Below are positions 1-8,785 of a stretch of 32,643 bases of DNA, piece by piece. The translations under genes and the position numbers were made by a program. Every line of letters begins with the position of its first letter. Within the stretch, counting starts at the first letter, position 1. The notes below the pieces were generated by a model. The model had not been told where the DNA came from. It did no database searches and saw only the letters and a program-made list of their open reading frames with translations. Source of the stretch: Micromonospora foliorum (GTDB lineage: Bacteria > Actinomycetota > Actinomycetes > Mycobacteriales > Micromonosporaceae); contig NZ_JAKKFF010000273.1 of NCBI RefSeq assembly GCF_022229015.1, positions 1 through 32,643 on the forward strand. Direction: 5' to 3'.

Positions 1-1829
1 AGGACCGCCCGGAACAGCTCGGTGCCGCTGGCCGGACGGCGGGCCACCAGCCACTCCTGCAAGGCCGTGGACGGCTCGGCCGCCATCACCCGCAGCGCCG
101 CGAAGACCCGCAGGTCCGCCTCCGGCACGGCGCGCCGCAGGCCGCCGGCCGCGTCGAAGCCGGCCAACACCTCGGTCGTACGCTTCCCGGTCGGCCACGG
201 ACCGTTGCGCAGCAGGATCAGCCGCCGTTGCGGCAGGTCCCGGTCCAACCCTGCGAGGGTGCAGGCGGCCTTGACCCGGGCGGTGACGGCGACGGCGTTC
301 GGGTGCGCGATGGCCCGGAAGCACCAGTGCGCCTCGTTCTCGGTGGCCTCGTCGAGCACCTCGATGAGCCGCCCGTGCAGCGCGGGCTTGCGCCCGGGCG
401 GCGGATCGTACTTGTAGGTGGCGCCGGTCGGCGCCTGCTCGGCGATCCAGGCGGCCAGGCCGGCGGCGAGCAGCGGCGGCAGGTGCTCGTCCTCGCCCGC
501 CGGGTCGACGGCGGCCGACACGTCCGCGGCCTCGACCAACGCGGCGAACCGTGCGTCCAACTCGTGCAGGCGGCGCTCGTCCGTCGTCGGGTCGGCGGAG
601 GCGCCACGGACGGTGCGCACCGTCGGCGTCGAGTCGGCGCCGTCGATGAGCCGGTCCAGCTCGACCACCTCGTCGCGGTCACGGCACCAGGCGATGTGGC
701 GGTCCACCCGGCGGAGCAGGGCGCGCGGGGTCAGGGTGGGTGCGTCGGCGAAGGCGGCGGGGGCGATCGGCCAGGTGGGGTGCGGTGGCACGAAGCGCGG
801 ACCGGCGAACGCGGCGGCGAGGCGCTTCGCCACGATCGCCTGCCCGATCTCCGGGGTGGGGATCCGGTCCGGCAGGGTCGACGTACGGAAGCGGTCGGCG
901 ACCGGGGTGGGCGCGGTGCGGGTCATCAGCACCCAGGTGTCCGGCAGGCACGAGACGACGACAAGCGTGCGGCGGGTGATGTCGCGGAGCTTGAGCAGGC
1001 CGTCGGCGATCGGGCCGAGCACCTTGGCCTGGCCGTCCTCCAGCCCCTGATGCTGGTTGAGCAGTGAGGTGCTGGTCTGGGCGAACAGCGTGTCGAGCTG
1101 GTCCACGGCGATGACCGTGGGGTCCAGGGTCAGGGCCATCAGCCGGGAGATGTCCTGCACGACCTGCTGCGGGGTGCGGACCGCCGCGCTCAACCCCCAC
1201 ACCGCCCGTGTGGCCGGGTCACCCGGTTCGGAGATCAGGTGGGCGTAGCCGACGTCCTGTGCCTCGAAGTCGATGGCGCCGTGCAGGACGAGCGCCCGAG
1301 CAGTGTCCTGGGCGTCCCGTCCGACCTCCCGATCGCGGTCGCGCAGCGCCCAGATGAAGGTGTCGAGCTGCGCACGGGTCACCGGTCGGGCGCCGGCGAC
1401 CGCGTCGCGGACCTCCACCGGCAGGCCGAGCTGGGGGGTGAGTCGGCGCAGGAAGGTCTTCAGCTGGGTGCCCCAGCCGACGTGGGGGCGGCCCAGCCCC
1501 TCCACCAGGGCCAGGGCCACGCTCTCCCAGAACGTCTTGCCGCTGACCATGTCGACCAGGAAGAAGTAGCCGCCGTCGCGCTGGATCCGTTCGCGGACCG
1601 CCCCGAGCAGGTGCGTCTTGCCGGCGCCCGCGCGGCCCTGCATGGCCACGCCGAGCGGCATGCTCGTGTCGTCGGTGCGGGCCCGTGCCACCCCGCGAAG
1701 GATCTCCGCGGCCACCTTCTCGTGCAGCTCCGGCACGTTGTGCGGGCTGGGTCGCCAGACGTCGTCCGGGGTGACCGCCGGGTTGAGACTCACCGCTTCC
1801 AGCGCGGCCCGCTGGTCGTCCGAGATCAT
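1..1829 (-). CDS. P-loop ATPase, third gene of nuclease/wHTH/ATPase operon (partial)
   Basis: About 609 N-terminal residues are visible; the gene continues past the left edge. A Walker A motif GRAGAGKT lies at residues 65-72, after a short lead containing a DDVW..SPHNVPELH segment. A hydrophobic Walker B-like strand VIAVDQLD is near residues 237-244, followed by a sensor-like strand (TLVVVSCLP). This order fits an AAA/STAND-like NTPase core that opens with a helical N-terminal element. The rest is helical, without transmembrane segments. The start ATG overlaps the stop of the upstream winged-helix gene as ATGA, so the two are translationally coupled. I do not recognise the family. Large ATPases of this general build occur in BREX/Pgl-like and other conflict systems, but no diagnostic motif ties it to one. 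The role is therefore open; energy-dependent remodelling of a DNA-bound complex would fit its partners. Confidence 0.8.
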   Translation of the reverse strand, partial: MISDDQRAALEAVSLNPAVTPDDVWRPSPHNVPELHEKVAAEILRGVARARTDDTSMPLGVAMQGRAGAGKTHLLGAVRERIQRDGGYFFLVDMVSGKTFWESVALALVEGLGRPHVGWGTQLKTFLRRLTPQLGLPVEVRDAVAGARPVTRAQLDTFIWALRDRDREVGRDAQDTARALVLHGAIDFEAQDVGYAHLISEPGDPATRAVWGLSAAVRTPQQVVQDISRLMALTLDPTVIAVDQLDTLFAQTSTSLLNQHQGLEDGQAKVLGPIADGLLKLRDITRRTLVVVSCLPDTWVLMTRTAPTPVADRFRTSTLPDRIPTPEIGQAIVAKRLAAAFAGPRFVPPHPTWPIAPAAFADAPTLTPRALLRRVDRHIAWCRDRDEVVELDRLIDGADSTPTVRTVRGASADPTTDERRLHELDARFAALVEAADVSAAVDPAGEDEHLPPLLAAGLAAWIAEQAPTGATYKYDPPPGRKPALHGRLIEVLDEATENEAHWCFRAIAHPNAVAVTARVKAACTLAGLDRDLPQRRLILLRNGPWPTGKRTTEVLAGFDAAGGLRRAVPEADLRVFAALRVMAAEPSTALQEWLVARRPASGTELFRAV

Positions 1830-2551
1830 GCCGGGCCGATCGCCAGGGCGTGGTTGTCCTCGTTCCCGATGCGGACGGCCGCGGCCCGGTCCCGTGCGGT
1901 CAGTGACTTGGTGTTCGCCACCGGGATGATGCGGACGTCCTCGCGGCCGACCATCGCCCGCAACGCCGCGTCGAGGGAGGCCCGGTCGGTGTCGGCGAGC
2001 CGCTCGCGGACGTCGGCGAGGCCGACCCAGGCGCCCGGCGCGGTGGCCAGATCCCGGTACGCGGAACGAACCAGCGCCTCCACCTCCGCCGCGGACATCG
2101 GCGCTGTCGCTGCGGGTGCCGCCGTCGTCGCTGCCACCGTGGGTGCGGGTGCTTCCTGTCGCGGCTCGGTGGCCACCGGGGCCGTCGCCTCGGTCTGCTT
2201 GAAGAAATCGCCGTGGCTGACCCGGAGCCGGTCCAGCGAACGGTGCAGGTTGGACAGGACGACGAACAGCGACCGGGTGGTCGAGCCGCCCTGCTTCGGC
2301 GGCGCGGCGGTGTGCAGCTGACGTGCCACCCGCCAGCCCTCCTCGGTCAGCTCGTGGGCGAACGGCCGGTGCGTCCGATCGGTGTCCACCAGGCCCAGGT
2401 CGACGAGCTTCTTGTTGTCCTGGCCGGTCAGCGTGAAACCGGCCAGCTCCTTCAGCTCGGCGTTTGTGAGTCGGCGCGCCTCGACCATCAGCACCACGAG
2501 GGCGTTGATCTGGTTCGGCGTCAGGTGCGGGACGTCCGCCGGGGTGGTCAT
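1826..2551 (-). CDS. tandem winged-helix DNA-binding protein
   Basis: This 241-residue soluble protein has two winged-helix-like units. The first (about residues 8-80) begins LTPNQINALVVLMVEARRLT and has a MarR-like helix pattern. The second (about 155-235) contains VGLADVRERLADTDRASLD followed by a wing-like strand RIIPVANTKSL. They are joined by an Ala/Pro/Thr-rich linker (about residues 115-150) that is probably disordered. The start ATG overlaps the stop of the upstream DUF559 gene (ATGA), and its stop overlaps the next start in the same way. These overlaps suggest three proteins made in fixed ratio. Its likely job is to bring the nuclease-fold and ATPase partners to DNA, or to repress the operon. 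That role is inferred from fold and position only. Confidence 0.75.
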   Translation of the reverse strand: MTTPADVPHLTPNQINALVVLMVEARRLTNAELKELAGFTLTGQDNKKLVDLGLVDTDRTHRPFAHELTEEGWRVARQLHTAAPPKQGGSTTRSLFVVLSNLHRSLDRLRVSHGDFFKQTEATAPVATEPRQEAPAPTVAATTAAPAATAPMSAAEVEALVRSAYRDLATAPGAWVGLADVRERLADTDRASLDAALRAMVGREDVRIIPVANTKSLTARDRAAAVRIGNEDNHALAIGPA

Positions 2552-3651
2552 GATGTCTCATCTCCGTGGGATTGCGTGCCGTCCGCGCGTCGCCGGGCCA
2601 GCAGCCGACGGATCCCGTCGACCACCGCCGGCACGTCGGTGAGCACCTGCTCATTGGTGAAGCGGAGCACGTCCAGCCCGAGGAGTTGCAGCTGCACGTC
2701 TCTCCGCCGATCGTTGGCGAAAGCGATTCGCCCACGATGCTCCGGGCCGTCCACCTCGACCGCAAGCCCCTCCACGGGCCAAAACAGATCCAGTCGGTAC
2801 GCCGCGCCCAGGACGTGCCACTCGTAGGTCTGGTTCCACCGCCGGCCGCGCGCCCAGTCGTGCGGCGCGAGTGCGCGTTCCAACGCCTGCTCGGCGGCGC
2901 TGTCACCGCGTGGGACGCCCGCGAGCGGCGGCCAGGCCAGCACCGTCGACTCCGGCTCGACGGCGGTGGCCGGAATCCGTTCGATCGTGCTGGCCAACTC
3001 GGCGAAGCGCGCCGGCATTGGCATGGACACCGACCGCACCCGGTCGGCGTGGCGCAGGGGCCCACCGGCCAACCACACCGTGAAGTCGCCGTGCCGCACG
3101 AGCCACTCGGCGGCGGCCACCAGCGTCCGCTCGGCGTCGGCGTCCAGGTCGGGCAGGGCCACGACGAGTAGGCAGCTCTCCCGGTCGTACGCCTCGGCGA
3201 TCACCCGGGCGAGCCCGGCGGCGCGTACCCCCGGGGCGAAGCGGGACGGGCCGGCGGGGTGGCGCGGACCGCGCAGCCCACGCTCGGCGAGGTCGGCCAG
3301 GAACGGGCCGAAGTGCCGGGAGTGGGCGGCGGTACGGGCCGCGAGGGCGCGCACCGCCGCCACGCCGAGCGTGCCCTCGCCGTCGAAACGGTCGGCCCCG
3401 GTCAGCCAGCGGGGGAACATGGCGAGGGCCGCGGTGTCGAGGTGGCCGAGCAGGGTGTCCACGAGGTCGCCGAGGGGACCTGTCACCGTGGGCCGGTAGT
3501 GCACGATCGCGGGCGCTGCCGGTGGCAACGGGTCGAGTGCCACCCGCAGCAGCTCCGGGTCGATGCTCGGCAGGTGACTCACCCGTCGCGTCGGCGGGGC
3601 GGCCCACCAGGCAGTGTTGGCGTCGCCGATGGCTCGGACGGGGTGCGCCAT
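2548..3651 (-). CDS. DUF559-type (Vsr-like) nuclease-fold protein, first gene of operon
   Basis: The protein has 367 residues. The C-terminal ~100 residues carry the DUF559 pattern of the PD-(D/E)xK/Vsr endonuclease fold. The stretch YRLDLFWP...AVEVDGPEH supplies the metal-binding Asp and the E-V-D strand. It is followed by NDRRRDVQLQLLGLDVLRFTNEQV, the usual RD..L...G..VLRF.N..V signature. The N-terminal ~250 residues are less familiar, mixed alpha/beta, and may be a sensor or partner-binding region. Translation probably starts at the ATG at 3651, because a TAGGGT -10 box sits exactly six bases upstream with no Shine-Dalgarno, as in leaderless actinobacterial mRNAs. Association with a winged-helix protein and an ATPase suggests DNA cleavage or processing under ATP control. 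Target and trigger are unknown. Confidence 0.8.
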   Translation of the reverse strand: MAHPVRAIGDANTAWWAAPPTRRVSHLPSIDPELLRVALDPLPPAAPAIVHYRPTVTGPLGDLVDTLLGHLDTAALAMFPRWLTGADRFDGEGTLGVAAVRALAARTAAHSRHFGPFLADLAERGLRGPRHPAGPSRFAPGVRAAGLARVIAEAYDRESCLLVVALPDLDADAERTLVAAAEWLVRHGDFTVWLAGGPLRHADRVRSVSMPMPARFAELASTIERIPATAVEPESTVLAWPPLAGVPRGDSAAEQALERALAPHDWARGRRWNQTYEWHVLGAAYRLDLFWPVEGLAVEVDGPEHRGRIAFANDRRRDVQLQLLGLDVLRFTNEQVLTDVPAVVDGIRRLLARRRADGTQSHGDETS

Positions 3652-3657
3652 GCCGGC

Positions 3658-3663
3658 ACCCTA
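3658..3663 (-). promoter_or_regulatory. -10 box of a leaderless promoter for the nuclease/wHTH/ATPase operon
   Basis: On the minus strand, TAGGGT (TANNNT type) is followed by six bases and then the ATG at 3651, so transcription would begin at or next to the A of the start codon. No purine-rich ribosome-binding site lies in front of the ATG. No good -35 hexamer is seen. Confidence 0.5.
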
Positions 3664-5202: not shown

Positions 5203-6162
5203 TTATCGACGCCCCCCGACAGAACCGGGGTCCGGCCAGCCCAGCGCGTCGTCGCGGAGCACCGCGTGCGCGCCGACGCTCTGGTTGACGATCTGCGTCA
5301 CCCGCACGTCGACCGCGATGCTGGCCAGCGCCACCGCGTCCGCGCGGCTGAGGCCGTGCAGCCGCTGCATCAGGGTCAGCATCGAGTCCAGGGCGGTGAA
5401 CGTGGCCTCGTCGAGGGAGGCACCGACGCCGAGGGTCAGCCACGCGTCGGGGGTACGGGCCACCGGGCCGGTGACCGGGAAGTCTTCGCGTACGTCGAAG
5501 GTCAACGTCACCTCGTCCATCGGACACTCGATCGCGGTGCCGCCGACCTCGCCGTCACCCTGTGCGGCGTGTCCGTCCCCGACGGAGAACAGCGCGCCGT
5601 CCACCGGGATCGGCAGCAGGAGGGTGCTGCCAGCGGTGAGGTCCCGGCAGTCCAGATTGCCGCCCCAGGGGCGCGGTGGGATCGTCGAGTGAAGCCCCGG
5701 CTCCGCTGGTGGCATCCCGAGCACTCCCATGAAGGGCCGCAGCGCGACCGTGTGCCCGTGCTGGTTGCGGCCGGTCATCGTCACCGGGTCCAGCGTCCAG
5801 GCGTGCACCACCGGTTGATCCTGCACGCCGTAGCGCTCGTTGAACCCGCTCGGCCAGCCGCCGGCCACTGTGGTCCCCCAGCGGCCAGGGACGACCGCGT
5901 CGACCCGTACCGCGAGGGTCTGGCCGGCGCGCGCACCGCGGACCGCGACCGGACCGATCAGCGCGTGCCCGTGGTCGGGCCGGTGCTGCGCGACCCGGGG
6001 CCGGTCCCGGTTCGGCCCACCGGAGTACGGGCCGGCGGACCACCAGCAGTCCAGGGTGCGGTAGGTGACGGTGTCGCCGGGTTCGATGGTGAGCACCGGA
6101 GGGAAGTCGGGGGAGAAGTGGCCGTGCAGGCTGTCGTCCCCGGGCGTGAGGGTGTGTCGCAT
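5203..6162 (-). CDS. acetamidase/formamidase family amidohydrolase
   Basis: This 319-residue protein matches the FmdA/AmdA family along its whole length. It opens with a barrel strand (SPDFPPVLTIEPGDTVTYRTLD) and has the central P..GGNLDCRDLTAGSTLLLPI segment. The family's active-site signature is DGHAAQGDGEVGGTAIECP near residue 200, with its conserved His, Asp and Glu. Known members hydrolyse formamide or acetamide to ammonia plus the acid, as soluble oligomers; substrate preference cannot be read from sequence. The ATG at 6162 has no Shine-Dalgarno, but a TAGCCT -10 box lies exactly six bases upstream, which suggests a leaderless message. The gene is monocistronic between the deacetylase terminator and the WGR gene. 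Confidence 0.88.
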   Translation of the reverse strand: MRHTLTPGDDSLHGHFSPDFPPVLTIEPGDTVTYRTLDCWWSAGPYSGGPNRDRPRVAQHRPDHGHALIGPVAVRGARAGQTLAVRVDAVVPGRWGTTVAGGWPSGFNERYGVQDQPVVHAWTLDPVTMTGRNQHGHTVALRPFMGVLGMPPAEPGLHSTIPPRPWGGNLDCRDLTAGSTLLLPIPVDGALFSVGDGHAAQGDGEVGGTAIECPMDEVTLTFDVREDFPVTGPVARTPDAWLTLGVGASLDEATFTALDSMLTLMQRLHGLSRADAVALASIAVDVRVTQIVNQSVGAHAVLRDDALGWPDPGSVGGRR

Positions 6163-6168
6163 CAGTGC

Positions 6169-6174
6169 AGGCTA
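6169..6174 (-). promoter_or_regulatory. -10 box of a leaderless promoter for the acetamidase/formamidase gene
   Basis: TAGCCT on the minus strand ends six bases before the ATG at 6162, so the start codon would be at about +1. A weak TGCCTG lies 18 bases further upstream. No Shine-Dalgarno is present. Confidence 0.4.
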
Positions 6175-6199
6175 GTGACCACGTGCGGCGGGCAGGCAG

Positions 6200-6234
6200 G
6201 TGCGCGGTGGGTGCCGGGCGCACCCACCGCGCAC
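6200..6234 (-). terminator. hairpin terminator after the CE4 deacetylase gene
   Basis: A perfect 15-bp inverted repeat (arms 6200-6214 and 6220-6234) encloses a 5-base loop 17 bases past the deacetylase stop. There is no U-tract, which is common for actinobacterial terminators. Confidence 0.7.
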
Positions 6235-6251
6235 GACTCGACCGGGCGATG

Positions 6252-7274
6252 TCAACCCGAGGTGCAGGAGCGAACCTGTGGGCGGGCGCTGCTGTTGCCG
6301 TTGGTCATCGTGGTGAAGCCGAAGGTGTTGCCGCTGCCGTTGGACCGCATGGTCATGACTGTCCCGCTGCTGTCCCAGGTGGCGGTGCCGTTCCAGATGG
6401 TGGTGACCCGCTGCGGTGCGGTGATGGCCACGACCACCGTCCACGTGCTTGCGCCGCTGACCGTCACCGACGTGTTGTAGCGGTCGCCCCAGACGTTCGT
6501 GGTCGTGGCGGTGGCGGTGCAGGTGCCGCCGGCGGGCGGCGGGGTGGTGGTGGGCGGCGGGGTCGTGCCGTCGGGCGCGACCGCGCGGCCGGTGGACGGC
6601 GAGATCATGCCGGGGCACAGGTTGCGGCTGCTCAGGTTGGCCATGATCTGGGGGATGGCGTCGCGGGTGTTCTGGATCCCGTCGTGCATCAGGATGACCT
6701 GACCGGCCTGGAGCCGGCTCGCGTTGGCCACGATCTGGCTGACGCTGGCGCCGTTCCAGTCCTGGGAGTCGACGTCCCAGATCACCTGGCGCATGCCCAG
6801 TGACGAAGCGACGGACTGCAGGGTGGCGTTGGTCTCGCCGTAGGGCGGCCGGAACAGCACCGGTCGGCTGCCGGTCGCCGACTGGATCGCCGAGCTGGTC
6901 TGGGACAGGTCCGACTGCATCTGCGCCTGGCTCATCGAGGTCATGTGGGCGTGGTTCCAGCTGTGGTTGGCGACCCACATGCCGGCAGCCACCTGCGCCT
7001 GCGCGGCCGAGCGGTTGTTCTGGACGTTCTGCCCGACGTTGAACATGGTGGCCCGTACGCCGTTGGCGCGCAGCACGTTCAGCAGCGCGCTGGTGCTGGC
7101 GGTCGGACCGTCGTCGAAGGTGAGGCCGACGTAGCCGTTGCATACGGCGGCGCTCGACGGGGTCGAGGTGGCCGCGAGGACGACGCCGCACATGGCGACG
7201 GCGGTGGCGAGGACGGCGAGCGCCGCGCGCAACCGCCTCGACCACAGGGCCGTGCGGGGGAAGAGCCTGCTCAT
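6252..7274 (-). CDS. secreted CE4 polysaccharide deacetylase with C-terminal CBM2
   Basis: The protein has 340 residues. The N-terminus has Arg residues, a hydrophobic stretch and an SSAA-type cleavage region near residue 43 (export signal). The NodB/CE4 catalytic domain follows with all five motifs: TFDDGP (metal-binding Asp), HSWNH (metal-binding His pair), RPPYG, DVDSQDW and LMHD (catalytic His). A Pro/Thr linker leads to a family 2 carbohydrate-binding module with terminal Cys residues, used by actinomycetes to bind cellulose or chitin. The likely reaction is removal of acetyl groups from chitin/chitooligosaccharide or acetylxylan outside the cell. The divergent GH19 chitinase favours a chitin substrate. 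An AGGGG sequence precedes the ATG at 7274. Confidence 0.9.
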   Translation of the reverse strand: MSRLFPRTALWSRRLRAALAVLATAVAMCGVVLAATSTPSSAAVCNGYVGLTFDDGPTASTSALLNVLRANGVRATMFNVGQNVQNNRSAAQAQVAAGMWVANHSWNHAHMTSMSQAQMQSDLSQTSSAIQSATGSRPVLFRPPYGETNATLQSVASSLGMRQVIWDVDSQDWNGASVSQIVANASRLQAGQVILMHDGIQNTRDAIPQIMANLSSRNLCPGMISPSTGRAVAPDGTTPPPTTTPPPAGGTCTATATTTNVWGDRYNTSVTVSGASTWTVVVAITAPQRVTTIWNGTATWDSSGTVMTMRSNGSGNTFGFTTMTNGNSSARPQVRSCTSG

Positions 7275-7705
7275 CTGGTGCCCCTTCGCGCAGGCCCGGA
7301 CGCGCCCTGGTGGGTGGGCAGCACAGTCCGGACAGGTGTGGATGAGTGGGTGGGTGGAGCCGAAACCGCAACGAAGCCGATCGCATCGACGTCAATGGAT
7401 CGGAGTATTACAGCGAGAATTCCAACACGTCAACAAGTTCCGGAACATCCTCGGAACAACGCAGGAAGCTGTTCGGGGGGTTGGCCAGGCACTGCGGCCT
7501 CCGCTGGGATCTCGATCATGCTGTTCGACGCGTATGCACTCGACATGATCCGGAAAGCTGCCGGAATTATCGACCACCCGGCACCCGGGCCAGCATCGCG
7601 CCGGCCGCAGGTAATAGTAAAGATTGTGAACAGAAGATGTTACAGTCACTTCGGTCGATATCCGCTCGGGTTTCGGCCAGTGAGGTCCCAGAAAGGAGTG
7701 ATCAC
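7275..7705 (+). promoter_or_regulatory. 431-bp divergent control region between CE4 deacetylase and GH19 chitinase
   Basis: No gene is supported here. The region is clearly more AT-rich than its surroundings near 7380-7450 and 7600-7650. Candidate sites are a 10-bp palindrome GTTCCGGAAC at 7437-7446 and an interrupted inverted repeat TGTGAAC (7625-7631) / GTTACA (7639-7644), placed 60-80 bases before the chitinase start. No DasR-like TGGTCTAGACCA site was seen. Promoter hexamers could not be assigned with confidence. Confidence 0.4.
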
Positions 7706-8785
7706 ATGACGAGACTGCGCGCGCTGGTCGCGCTGGCGGCACTGGTCGTCACCGGTGGACTGGTTGCGGTCATCCCGGCCACGGCCGCGTCGGCGGCTGC
7801 CTGCTCAGCATCGTGGCAGGCCTCGGCCGTCTACTGGGGAGACGCCCAGGTCTCCCACAACGGCCGCAACTACCGGGCGAAGTGGTGGACCCAGAACGAG
7901 GCGCCACCCGGCACGACCGGCGTCTGGGAGGACCTCGGCGCGTGCGGGGGAGGCACCACGCCGCCCACGGGCGGGACCTGCAGCTACCCGAACTGGACCG
8001 CCGGGACGTGGTACGCCACCGGGGCGATCGTGCGGTACACCAACGGTCTCCACTACATCGCCGAGCACGACAATCCCGGGTACGACCCCGTCGTCAGCAC
8101 CTGGTACTGGGAGCCCTACACCTGTGGCGGTCAGCCACCGACCAGCCCGCCCCCCACCAACCCGGGCGGCTTCGTGGTCACCGAAGCCCAGTTCAACCAG
8201 ATGTTCCCGGGTCGCAACTCCTTCTACACGTACTCCGGGCTCGTCGCCGCGCTCAGCGCCTACCCGGCGTTCGCGCGCACCGGCAGCGCCACCGTCCAGC
8301 GCCAGGAGGCCGCAGCCTTCCTGGCGAACGTGTACCACGAGACCGGCGGGCTCGTGCACATCGTCGAGCAGAACACCGCGAACTACCCGCACTACTGCGA
8401 CCCCGGTCAGCCCTACGGATGTCCGGCCGGGCAGGCCGCCTACTACGGGCGGGGGCCGATCCAGCTCAGTTGGAACTTCAACTACAACGCCGCGGGCAAC
8501 GCCCTCAACCTGCCCCTGCTGACCAACCCGTGGCTCGTGCAGACCGACGCCTCGGTGGCCTGGAAGACCGGTATCTGGTACTGGATGACCCAGAACGGGC
8601 CGGGCACCATGACCGCCCACAATGCGATGGTCAACGGCGCCGGGTTCGGCGAGACGATCCGCAGCATCAACGGCTCGATCGAGTGCAACGGCGGAAACCC
8701 CGCCCAGGTGCAGAGCCGCGTCACCCGGTACCAGCAGTTCGTCGGCATCCTCGGCGTGTCCGCCGGAGCCAACCTCTCCTGCTGA
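7706..8785 (+). CDS. secreted GH19 chitinase with two CBM5/12 modules
   Basis: The protein has 359 residues; the ATG follows AAGGAG by seven bases. Residues 1-~33 are a signal peptide ending in ASAAA. Two chitin-binding CBM5/12 (ChtBD3) modules follow. The first (~34-85) has the typical SWQASAVYWGDAQVSHNGRNYRAKWWT pattern. The second (~92-142) keeps the Trp/Tyr framework but is more divergent. A Pro-rich linker leads to the GH19 catalytic domain (~150-359). It contains YHETGG, with the proton-donor Glu, and IVEQN, with the second acidic residue. It also contains the family signature YYGRGPIQLSWNFNY and a C-terminal Cys. It should cleave beta-1,4 N-acetylglucosamine chains extracellularly by the inverting mechanism. 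Divergent transcription with the CE4 deacetylase suggests joint induction by chitin. Confidence 0.93.
   Translation: MTRLRALVALAALVVTGGLVAVIPATAASAAACSASWQASAVYWGDAQVSHNGRNYRAKWWTQNEAPPGTTGVWEDLGACGGGTTPPTGGTCSYPNWTAGTWYATGAIVRYTNGLHYIAEHDNPGYDPVVSTWYWEPYTCGGQPPTSPPPTNPGGFVVTEAQFNQMFPGRNSFYTYSGLVAALSAYPAFARTGSATVQRQEAAAFLANVYHETGGLVHIVEQNTANYPHYCDPGQPYGCPAGQAAYYGRGPIQLSWNFNYNAAGNALNLPLLTNPWLVQTDASVAWKTGIWYWMTQNGPGTMTAHNAMVNGAGFGETIRSINGSIECNGGNPAQVQSRVTRYQQFVGILGVSAGANLSC

Follow-up and report, generated by a model that had tools for sequence, protein, structure and literature searches.

What kind of machine is encoded by three overlapping genes at the edge of a contig of the actinobacterium Micromonospora foliorum, and do all three belong together? 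The stretch analysed (NZ_JAKKFF010000273.1, positions 1 to 32,643), referred to here as the window at its full length of 32,643 nucleotides (nt), begins inside the third of these genes. An earlier note described them as a DUF559-type protein, a protein with two winged helices and a large P-loop ATPase, here named A, B and C, and proposed them as a candidate for a system not described before. Comparison of relatives supports the coupling of the three genes and their horizontal spread, but the sequences indicate that the conserved unit is B-C and that A is one of several alternative upstream partners. The reading that we favour, with moderate confidence, is that the B-C core and its exchangeable partner (here A) probably constitute a mobile defence system that captures and cuts invading DNA.

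The B-C core was recognised among 121 loci with C, a number that includes near-copies. B adjoins C in 113 of them, and the remaining eight comprise three contig-edge fragments (L027, L030, L208), one remnant (L105), two loci where C is split and B stands before its first half (L183, L206) and two that hold a long C and no B (L184, L185). At 97% identity and > 500 amino acids (aa) 110 loci were left, and four more were dropped (edge/split/fragment list, 900-aa minimum), giving the 106 rows of a C tree. The partner upstream of B is the DUF559 protein A in 65 of these rows, a TIR protein with a KGGVGR/ParA-type ATPase in 12, a divergent trypsin-WD40 gene in eight, a DUF4365 protein with an unassigned protein of 366-471 aa in four and a P-loop, STAND-like protein in two; 15 rows have no recognised partner. 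The identification of these partners varies in kind. WD40 and Trypco1 were found by Pfam at L069 and L073, the trypsin-like part was read from its motifs (LTCHH in 8/8, GFSGG in 7/8), the CATASP match of the KGGVGR ATPase lies just below the Pfam cut-off, and the STAND-like label is our own reading of the P-loop in a protein (cl85) with no Pfam family found. At L176-L179 a DUF4365 nuclease and the cl98 protein (no Pfam family in the one member scanned) stand in place of A. Beside a B-C locus with the STAND-like partner lies a PNP_UDP_1 phosphorylase fused to bDLD3 (L084:11165-12478, minus strand).

The exchange of partners is exclusive and follows C closely. Of the 151 genus genomes examined, 66 have a near-full-length C and three more have short remnants; the 66 were read from the place list, the raw tally of 108 including short P-loop matches. 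A occurs in 49 of the 151 (E <= 1e-30) and Trypco1 in 16 (E <= 1e-20), all of them among the 66 and none with both, and the sole C genome that lacks both (G067) keeps scraps of A at its locus (L103). Each of the 16 Trypco1 genes is divergent from C and has its start at a distance of 968-1102 nt. In another family, f76 (120 genomes), C is present in 35 genomes and the KGGVGR gene in 24; the 25 full-length KGGVGR genes (of 27 matches) all share the strand of C and stop 629-745 nt short of it, a gap of about the length of B, while the two other matches are partial and away from C, and 14 of the 39 C places in this family have no KGGVGR gene. Genomes within these groups are related, so the Fisher values for co-occurrence overstate independence. 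Twenty genomes without A at the C locus were searched for an A-type protein elsewhere and none was found, with matches to the DUF559 domain only in six. The C tree needs 13 changes of partner label, compared with a mean of 39 after shuffling, and the TIR-KGGVGR and trypsin-WD40 sets are each confined to one branch with 100% support in the Shimodaira-Hasegawa-like approximate likelihood ratio test (SH-aLRT); it was inferred quickly under LG+G4 and has long branches, and one or two origins of the DUF4365 partner are both possible. This exclusive exchange of A for TIR, protease and other nuclease genes is best explained by attachment to one platform.

The coupling of the genes is visible in their layout. 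A and B overlap by ATGA at bases 2548-2551 and B and C at bases 1826-1829, 4 nt each, as had been noted before. The overlap between the B stop and the C start is 4 nt in 94 of 104 measured loci, a value favoured by the measurement, which took the start codon nearest a 4-nt overlap. The collection of homologues proposed in the earlier note shows the same gene order in six genera (Micromonospora, Microbispora, Rhodococcus, Tsukamurella, Nonomuraea and Methylobacterium), and this recurrence indicates that the arrangement is not due to chance. A single promoter for the three genes, also claimed earlier, is plausible: a -10-like box precedes A, and 30 of 65 loci have the pattern TANNNT-N5-9-RTG ahead of A, where simple shuffling of the letters gives 4.85 on average, but the box itself remains a candidate.

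What had been described as a large P-loop ATPase does carry the expected AAA domain, but turned out to join two ATPases in one chain. Complete relatives of C (1033-1220 aa) begin with an AAA+ domain and end in a HerA translocase, with a middle domain between the two. Extension of the sequence to the left, advised in the earlier note, located the HerA half on contig C235 of the same genome (loci L002/L068), followed by an unrelated gene with an ABM domain; the closest relatives (cluster 5, 14 loci) have the same gene there. The window is contig C194 of an assembly of 586 contigs, and its end overlaps the start of C235 by 270 bp at 95% identity; 13 of the 270 bases differ (window 1-330 against L068 1-270), mostly near the C235 end, and the mismatches are likely due to low-quality contig ends. 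In the AAA+ domain K71 and D243-Q244 are each invariant in all 106 C proteins. Walker B usually carries a catalytic Glu where C has Gln (residues 243-244, window 1098-1103; Gln in 106/106 proteins), and this invariant Gln suggests that the AAA+ domain is an ATP-held switch, not a motor. The Walker motifs, Arg finger and Gln sensor-1 of the HerA domain are intact, with K709, T710, D954 and E955 in 106/106 proteins, R980 in 102 and Q991 in 104. The nearest solved relatives of this motor domain are HerA chains, including those of HerA-NurA complexes, and TrwB, VirB4 and FtsK chains also match; the VIA-align rows for C are filled by the HerA part and are uninformative on the AAA+ and middle domains.

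In the N-terminal part of C, AAA_22/AAA_16 scored above the cut-off in a Rhodococcus protein, and the ORC-CDC6-like family PF24389 below it in one C (E 0.06 and 0.17). Pfam gave nothing on the middle domain of four C proteins. In the structure model, made from 66 rows (L003, L028 and 64 of 72 picked proteins), its predicted order is helix, three strands, helix, strand, helix, strand, and no (D/E)xK is seen, which is consistent with an inactive restriction endonuclease (REase) fold; no winged helix-turn-helix (wHTH) was recognised after it. Variants of C also occur: a longer one of about 1480 aa, with its AAA and HerA matches ~900 residues apart, lies beside a complete A-B-C (L171:4998-14788), and at L184 and L185 a long variant stands alone, without B and with divergent kinase genes upstream.

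The descriptions of A and B given in the earlier note hold up, including the large N-terminal region of A outside any Pfam family (Table 1). The DUF559 domain of A matches PDB entry 3hrl, an 'Endonuclease-Like Protein' (E 4e-8), and E254, D288, E299 and D301 are each kept in 65 of 66 aligned A proteins. The family presumably is of the PD-(D/E)xK type, and by these sequence features A is likely a nuclease; no NurA match was found in it. The AlphaFold2 model of B, made from 41 rows (the window, two loci and 38 of 47 picked proteins), has two confident domains with winged-helix order on either side of residues 105-150, where the predicted local distance difference test score (pLDDT) falls below 50. 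Among solved structures, Foldseek places it closest to winged helices of the RosR/MarR type (best E 3e-3, none <= 1e-3), and some relatives carry the database name 'MarR family transcriptional regulator'. A PDB sequence search with the B profile gave only matches attributable to chance, calmodulins for the most part (E 0.19 or higher), hence the winged-helix assignment relies on predicted structure. Ten pairs drawn from the A, cl98, KGGVGR, STAND-like, trypsin, DUF4365, B and C families were compared as profiles, and none pointed to an adaptor domain in common (best probability 1.9%).

Table 1. Features of the A-B-C operon in the window.
Feature	Position	Strand	Description
-10-like box TAGGGT	3658-3663	minus	6 nt 5' of the ATG of A; candidate leaderless operon promoter
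Gene A	2548-3651	minus	367 aa, DUF559 family, ~250-aa N-terminal region without Pfam family
DUF559 domain of A	2602-2802	minus	residues 284-350, PF04480 E 3.1e-9
Gene B	1826-2551	minus	241 aa, two predicted winged helices, partner of C
First winged helix of B	2303-2521	minus	residues ~11-83, MarR-like, AlphaFold2
Disordered linker of B	2102-2239	minus	residues 105-150, pLDDT < 50, length varies between relatives
Second winged helix of B	1832-2095	minus	residues ~153-240, AlphaFold2
Gene C, 5' part	1-1829 (window edge)	minus	residues 1-609 of about 1080
AAA+ domain of C	645-1829	minus	residues 1-395; Walker A K71, Walker B D243-Q244
Middle domain of C	3-590	minus	residues ~414-609; no Pfam match

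The distribution of the system points to a mobile cassette. When each species was represented by one genome, the scan found 30 loci, in Micromonospora, Microbispora and Rhodococcus, and C (E <= 1e-60) was found in 6 of 396 genomes of a phylum sample, 46 of 394 of a class sample and 33 of 200 of an order sample. Twelve related sites have the WGR gene that adjoins A in the window with no trio beside it. In six of them (L212, L213, L214, L216, L222, L223) the WGR and ABM genes are adjacent, 20 to about 690 nt apart, and in the other six a different sequence follows WGR. Both flank alignments end at the same base in L216 and L222, which delimits the unit: it begins just after the stop codon of WGR and reaches as far as the -10-like TAGCCT in front of the following gene; such sites may be gains or losses, and the data fit either. 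On the megaplasmid pMaq22A_1p (MOBP) of Methylobacterium aquaticum the three genes stand in the order A-B-C, B and C overlapping by 4 nt, and together with the empty sites this copy supports the mobile cassette. Relatives of C are common in Methylobacterium, and Methylorubrum, Rhodopseudomonas and Lichenibacterium are also named among the matches listed (120 of 275). Two further records were rejected as plasmids: 'plasmid 22' of Tsukamurella carries ribosomal gene clusters and looks chromosomal, and 'plasmid I' of Nonomuraea was judged chromosomal from its size of 11.9 Mb; the Methylobacterium record alone is therefore taken as a plasmid. In Tsukamurella the trio and an adjacent VapBC pair interrupt a ribosomal protein gene cluster (L210:5541-11261). 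Three short HerA-end fragments of C (L105, L106, L107; 71-95% identity, no B or A found) are apparently remnants of lost copies.

The gene that adjoins A in the window encodes a WGR and PQQ-type beta-propeller protein (PF05406, PF13360; 3721-5199, minus strand) and is found in 106 of the 151 genus genomes (E <= 1e-100), whether the trio is present or not. Genes for an acetamidase/formamidase, a polysaccharide deacetylase and a family-19 chitinase with CBM5/12 follow in a row (window 5206-8785). Genes of unannotated loci were called by a GC-frame heuristic, and some flank genes are spurious. Enrichment in defence islands, a check proposed in the earlier note, was assessed with PADLOC (E <= 1e-10) in a sample: 69 families matched in 120 of 152 flank genes of 20 loci, compared with 26 in 120 of 206 control genes of the same 20 genomes, the families overlapping in both sets and the best 25 of each being named without identification of the member genes. 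Among the matches listed, the flank models include Cas1, Cas5/6, AbiU, RT and Cas12f, and the control models DpdF, AbiEi and BrxHI. Two bSEFIR matches in the flanks probably correspond to SEFIR genes that belong to the TIR variant. SEFIR and PNP-bDLD3 genes adjoin some loci.

How might these components work? HerA motors work as hexamers, holding or pumping DNA and activating a partner, and are known with the effectors NurA, SIR2 and DUF4297. For A-B-C, the sequences show the architecture, the motifs, the partner exchange and the mobility. B and the AAA+ and middle domains of C would recognise or load onto foreign DNA, the HerA domain would form a hexamer that captures and pumps it, and the partner would be positioned on the HerA ring or activated by it. 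A, or the DUF4365 protein, would cut the captured DNA, and where the partner is TIR/KGGVGR or trypsin-WD40 the damage would probably be directed at the host. DNA binding, hexamer formation, translocation, cleavage and defence are ascribed to A-B-C by analogy and should be read as proposals. A precedent is DUF4297-HerA, described in an excerpt of PMC11291478, which assembles on the HerA hexamer, cleaves double-stranded DNA and gives phage resistance.

Several observations weigh against this proposal. The function of A-B-C is a prediction from sequence and modelled structure, and the REase fold of the C middle domain is read solely from the order of its secondary structure. The enrichment of defence genes near the loci is weak and at most suggestive. 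A phage collection held no relative of C, and of 75 stretches that fit the patterns in a scan of viral contigs none was confirmed as C. Twelve loci (L085, L086, L161, L165, L167, L169, L188, L190, L193, L194, L195, L205; the 15 mentioned above minus decayed-A L103 and B-less L184 and L185) hold B-C with no recognised partner; 11 of the 12 genomes were searched for an A-type protein elsewhere and yielded only DUF559 domains, so that the partner may be accessory. At four of the twelve there are faint A-like matches (E 3e-4 to 7e-3) that may reflect decay or chance. TIR and trypsin partners, finally, misfit a purely DNA-cutting machine. A broader proposal, which we put forward tentatively, regards B-C as a plug-in DNA-sensing motor, a dual winged-helix reader on a HerA/AAA+ core, with one upstream slot at which gene exchange would have installed chemically unrelated outputs (DNA nucleases, TIR/KGGVGR, trypsin-WD40/Trypco1 or the P-loop protein), in which DNA capture would trigger restriction as well as cell suicide in actinobacteria.

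The TIR/KGGVGR and trypsin-WD40/Trypco1 partners, and the SEFIR and PNP-bDLD3 genes beside some loci, could also mean that B-C is the hub of an abortive infection system, in which it would sense foreign or abnormal DNA with the HerA ring acting mainly as a scaffold that activates the attached effector (nuclease, TIR or protease), the host being killed or arrested rather than the invader selectively cut; a section heading of PMC11291478 likewise assigns DUF4297-HerA to abortive infection. We consider this rather doubtful, since the commonest partner belongs to a nuclease family and the HerA motor residues are intact throughout. The resemblance of the motor to HerA-NurA, and the fact that a motor with a nuclease is a plan used in repair, raise the question of a DNA-repair or end-processing machine with A in the place of NurA. 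It is improbable in view of the patchy presence of C in the genus genomes and the phylum sample, the empty sites, the plasmid copy and the swapped partners, all of them unlike core repair. The matches of the motor to TrwB, VirB4 and FtsK, the CbiA/ParA-type KGGVGR partner and the insertion or loss of the genes as a unit would suit a maintenance or transfer module of integrated elements (a segregation or conjugation ATPase), but the unit at the compared sites consists of just three genes with no integrase or relaxase inside, and we regard this explanation as very unlikely. Here a single core, alignable over its length from AAA+ to HerA, is combined with several sets of partners unrelated to one another, that is, the same reader and motor with different outputs, which amounts to a natural experiment; the association is close genome-wide (49 + 16 of 66 genomes, 25/25 full-length KGGVGR genes), and a testable trigger is offered for genes named only 'hypothetical', 'DUF559', 'DUF87' or 'ATP-binding' protein.

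How does this plan compare with known systems? The earlier note found no named counterpart and gave a match of the ATPase to a known system such as BREX as a result that would refute its proposal. BREX was rejected: PADLOC models of BrxC/PglY do not match any of three C proteins at E <= 0.01, and the scanned genes nearby, four in the window and the one that follows C, belong to other families. DndFGH was rejected as well: A and B have no DndF or DndG match, DndH models match just the HerA part of one of the three C proteins (best E 1.1e-4), and the PADLOC models of DndH are ~1700 aa long compared with about 1080 aa for C, which has an AAA+ domain in front. The best PADLOC match of C is mad8 of MADS (E 1.2e-21, HerA part only), a system that was rejected because A and B match no mad model. 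MADS is an eight-gene mad operon with a methyltransferase. HerA-NurA shares with A-B-C a HerA motor and a nuclease from a neighbouring gene, but is not known to have an AAA+ fusion or B, and A lacks a NurA match. DUF4297-HerA and SIR2-HerA (Nezha) likewise combine a HerA motor with an effector gene; they are not known to have a winged-helix partner and their HerA is stand-alone, without the N-terminal AAA+ and middle domains, as the VIA-align alignments also indicate. No DUF4297 or SIR2 domain was found in A, B, C or the scanned partners among the Pfam matches listed (for the WD40 protein, the best 25 of 45). Another HerA capture system, with PglZ, appears in the available part of a 2026 BREX paper (PMC12839542), and A-B-C is not that system.

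A published plan does exist, in this respect revising the earlier note. The HerA/FtsK capture systems described in 2024 (PMC10853773, as excerpted) couple HerA/FtsK domains to AAA+ ATPases of the ORC/CDC6 clade, to an inactive REase that stands between the AAA+ core and a C-terminal wHTH, to an active REase of one of two families and to multi-wHTH proteins, in single or several polypeptides. A-B-C fits the ORC/CDC6-coupled kind, with a putative ORC-clade assignment and a putative inactive REase: it shares the AAA+ ATPase, a HerA/FtsK domain with intact motifs, Arg finger and Gln sensor-1, a nuclease-family gene, a separate multi-wHTH protein (B, by predicted structure), a domain consistent with an inactive REase and a mobile gene neighbourhood (empty sites, plasmid copy). 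It appears to differ in its nuclease, as the main text of PMC10853773 contains neither 'DUF559' nor 'Vsr', and in the replacement of the nuclease gene by TIR/KGGVGR, by trypsin-WD40/Trypco1 or by other partners, which sections 22 and 26 of that paper do not describe; TIR or STAND fused to related ORC/CDC6 genes is placed there outside the HerA association. Literature searches pairing HerA with DUF559 in defence returned only unrelated work, and those pairing DUF559 with DUF87 returned none. The trypsin-WD40 and Trypco1 set belongs to the NTP-dependent conflict systems reported in 2020 (PMC7159879), where, in the part of the text available, 'HerA' appears just in the reference list. As far as the literature searched shows, the DUF559 partner and the exchange of partners are what is new in A-B-C, and through them DNA-capture systems become linked with the TIR and Trypco conflict systems, so far described apart.

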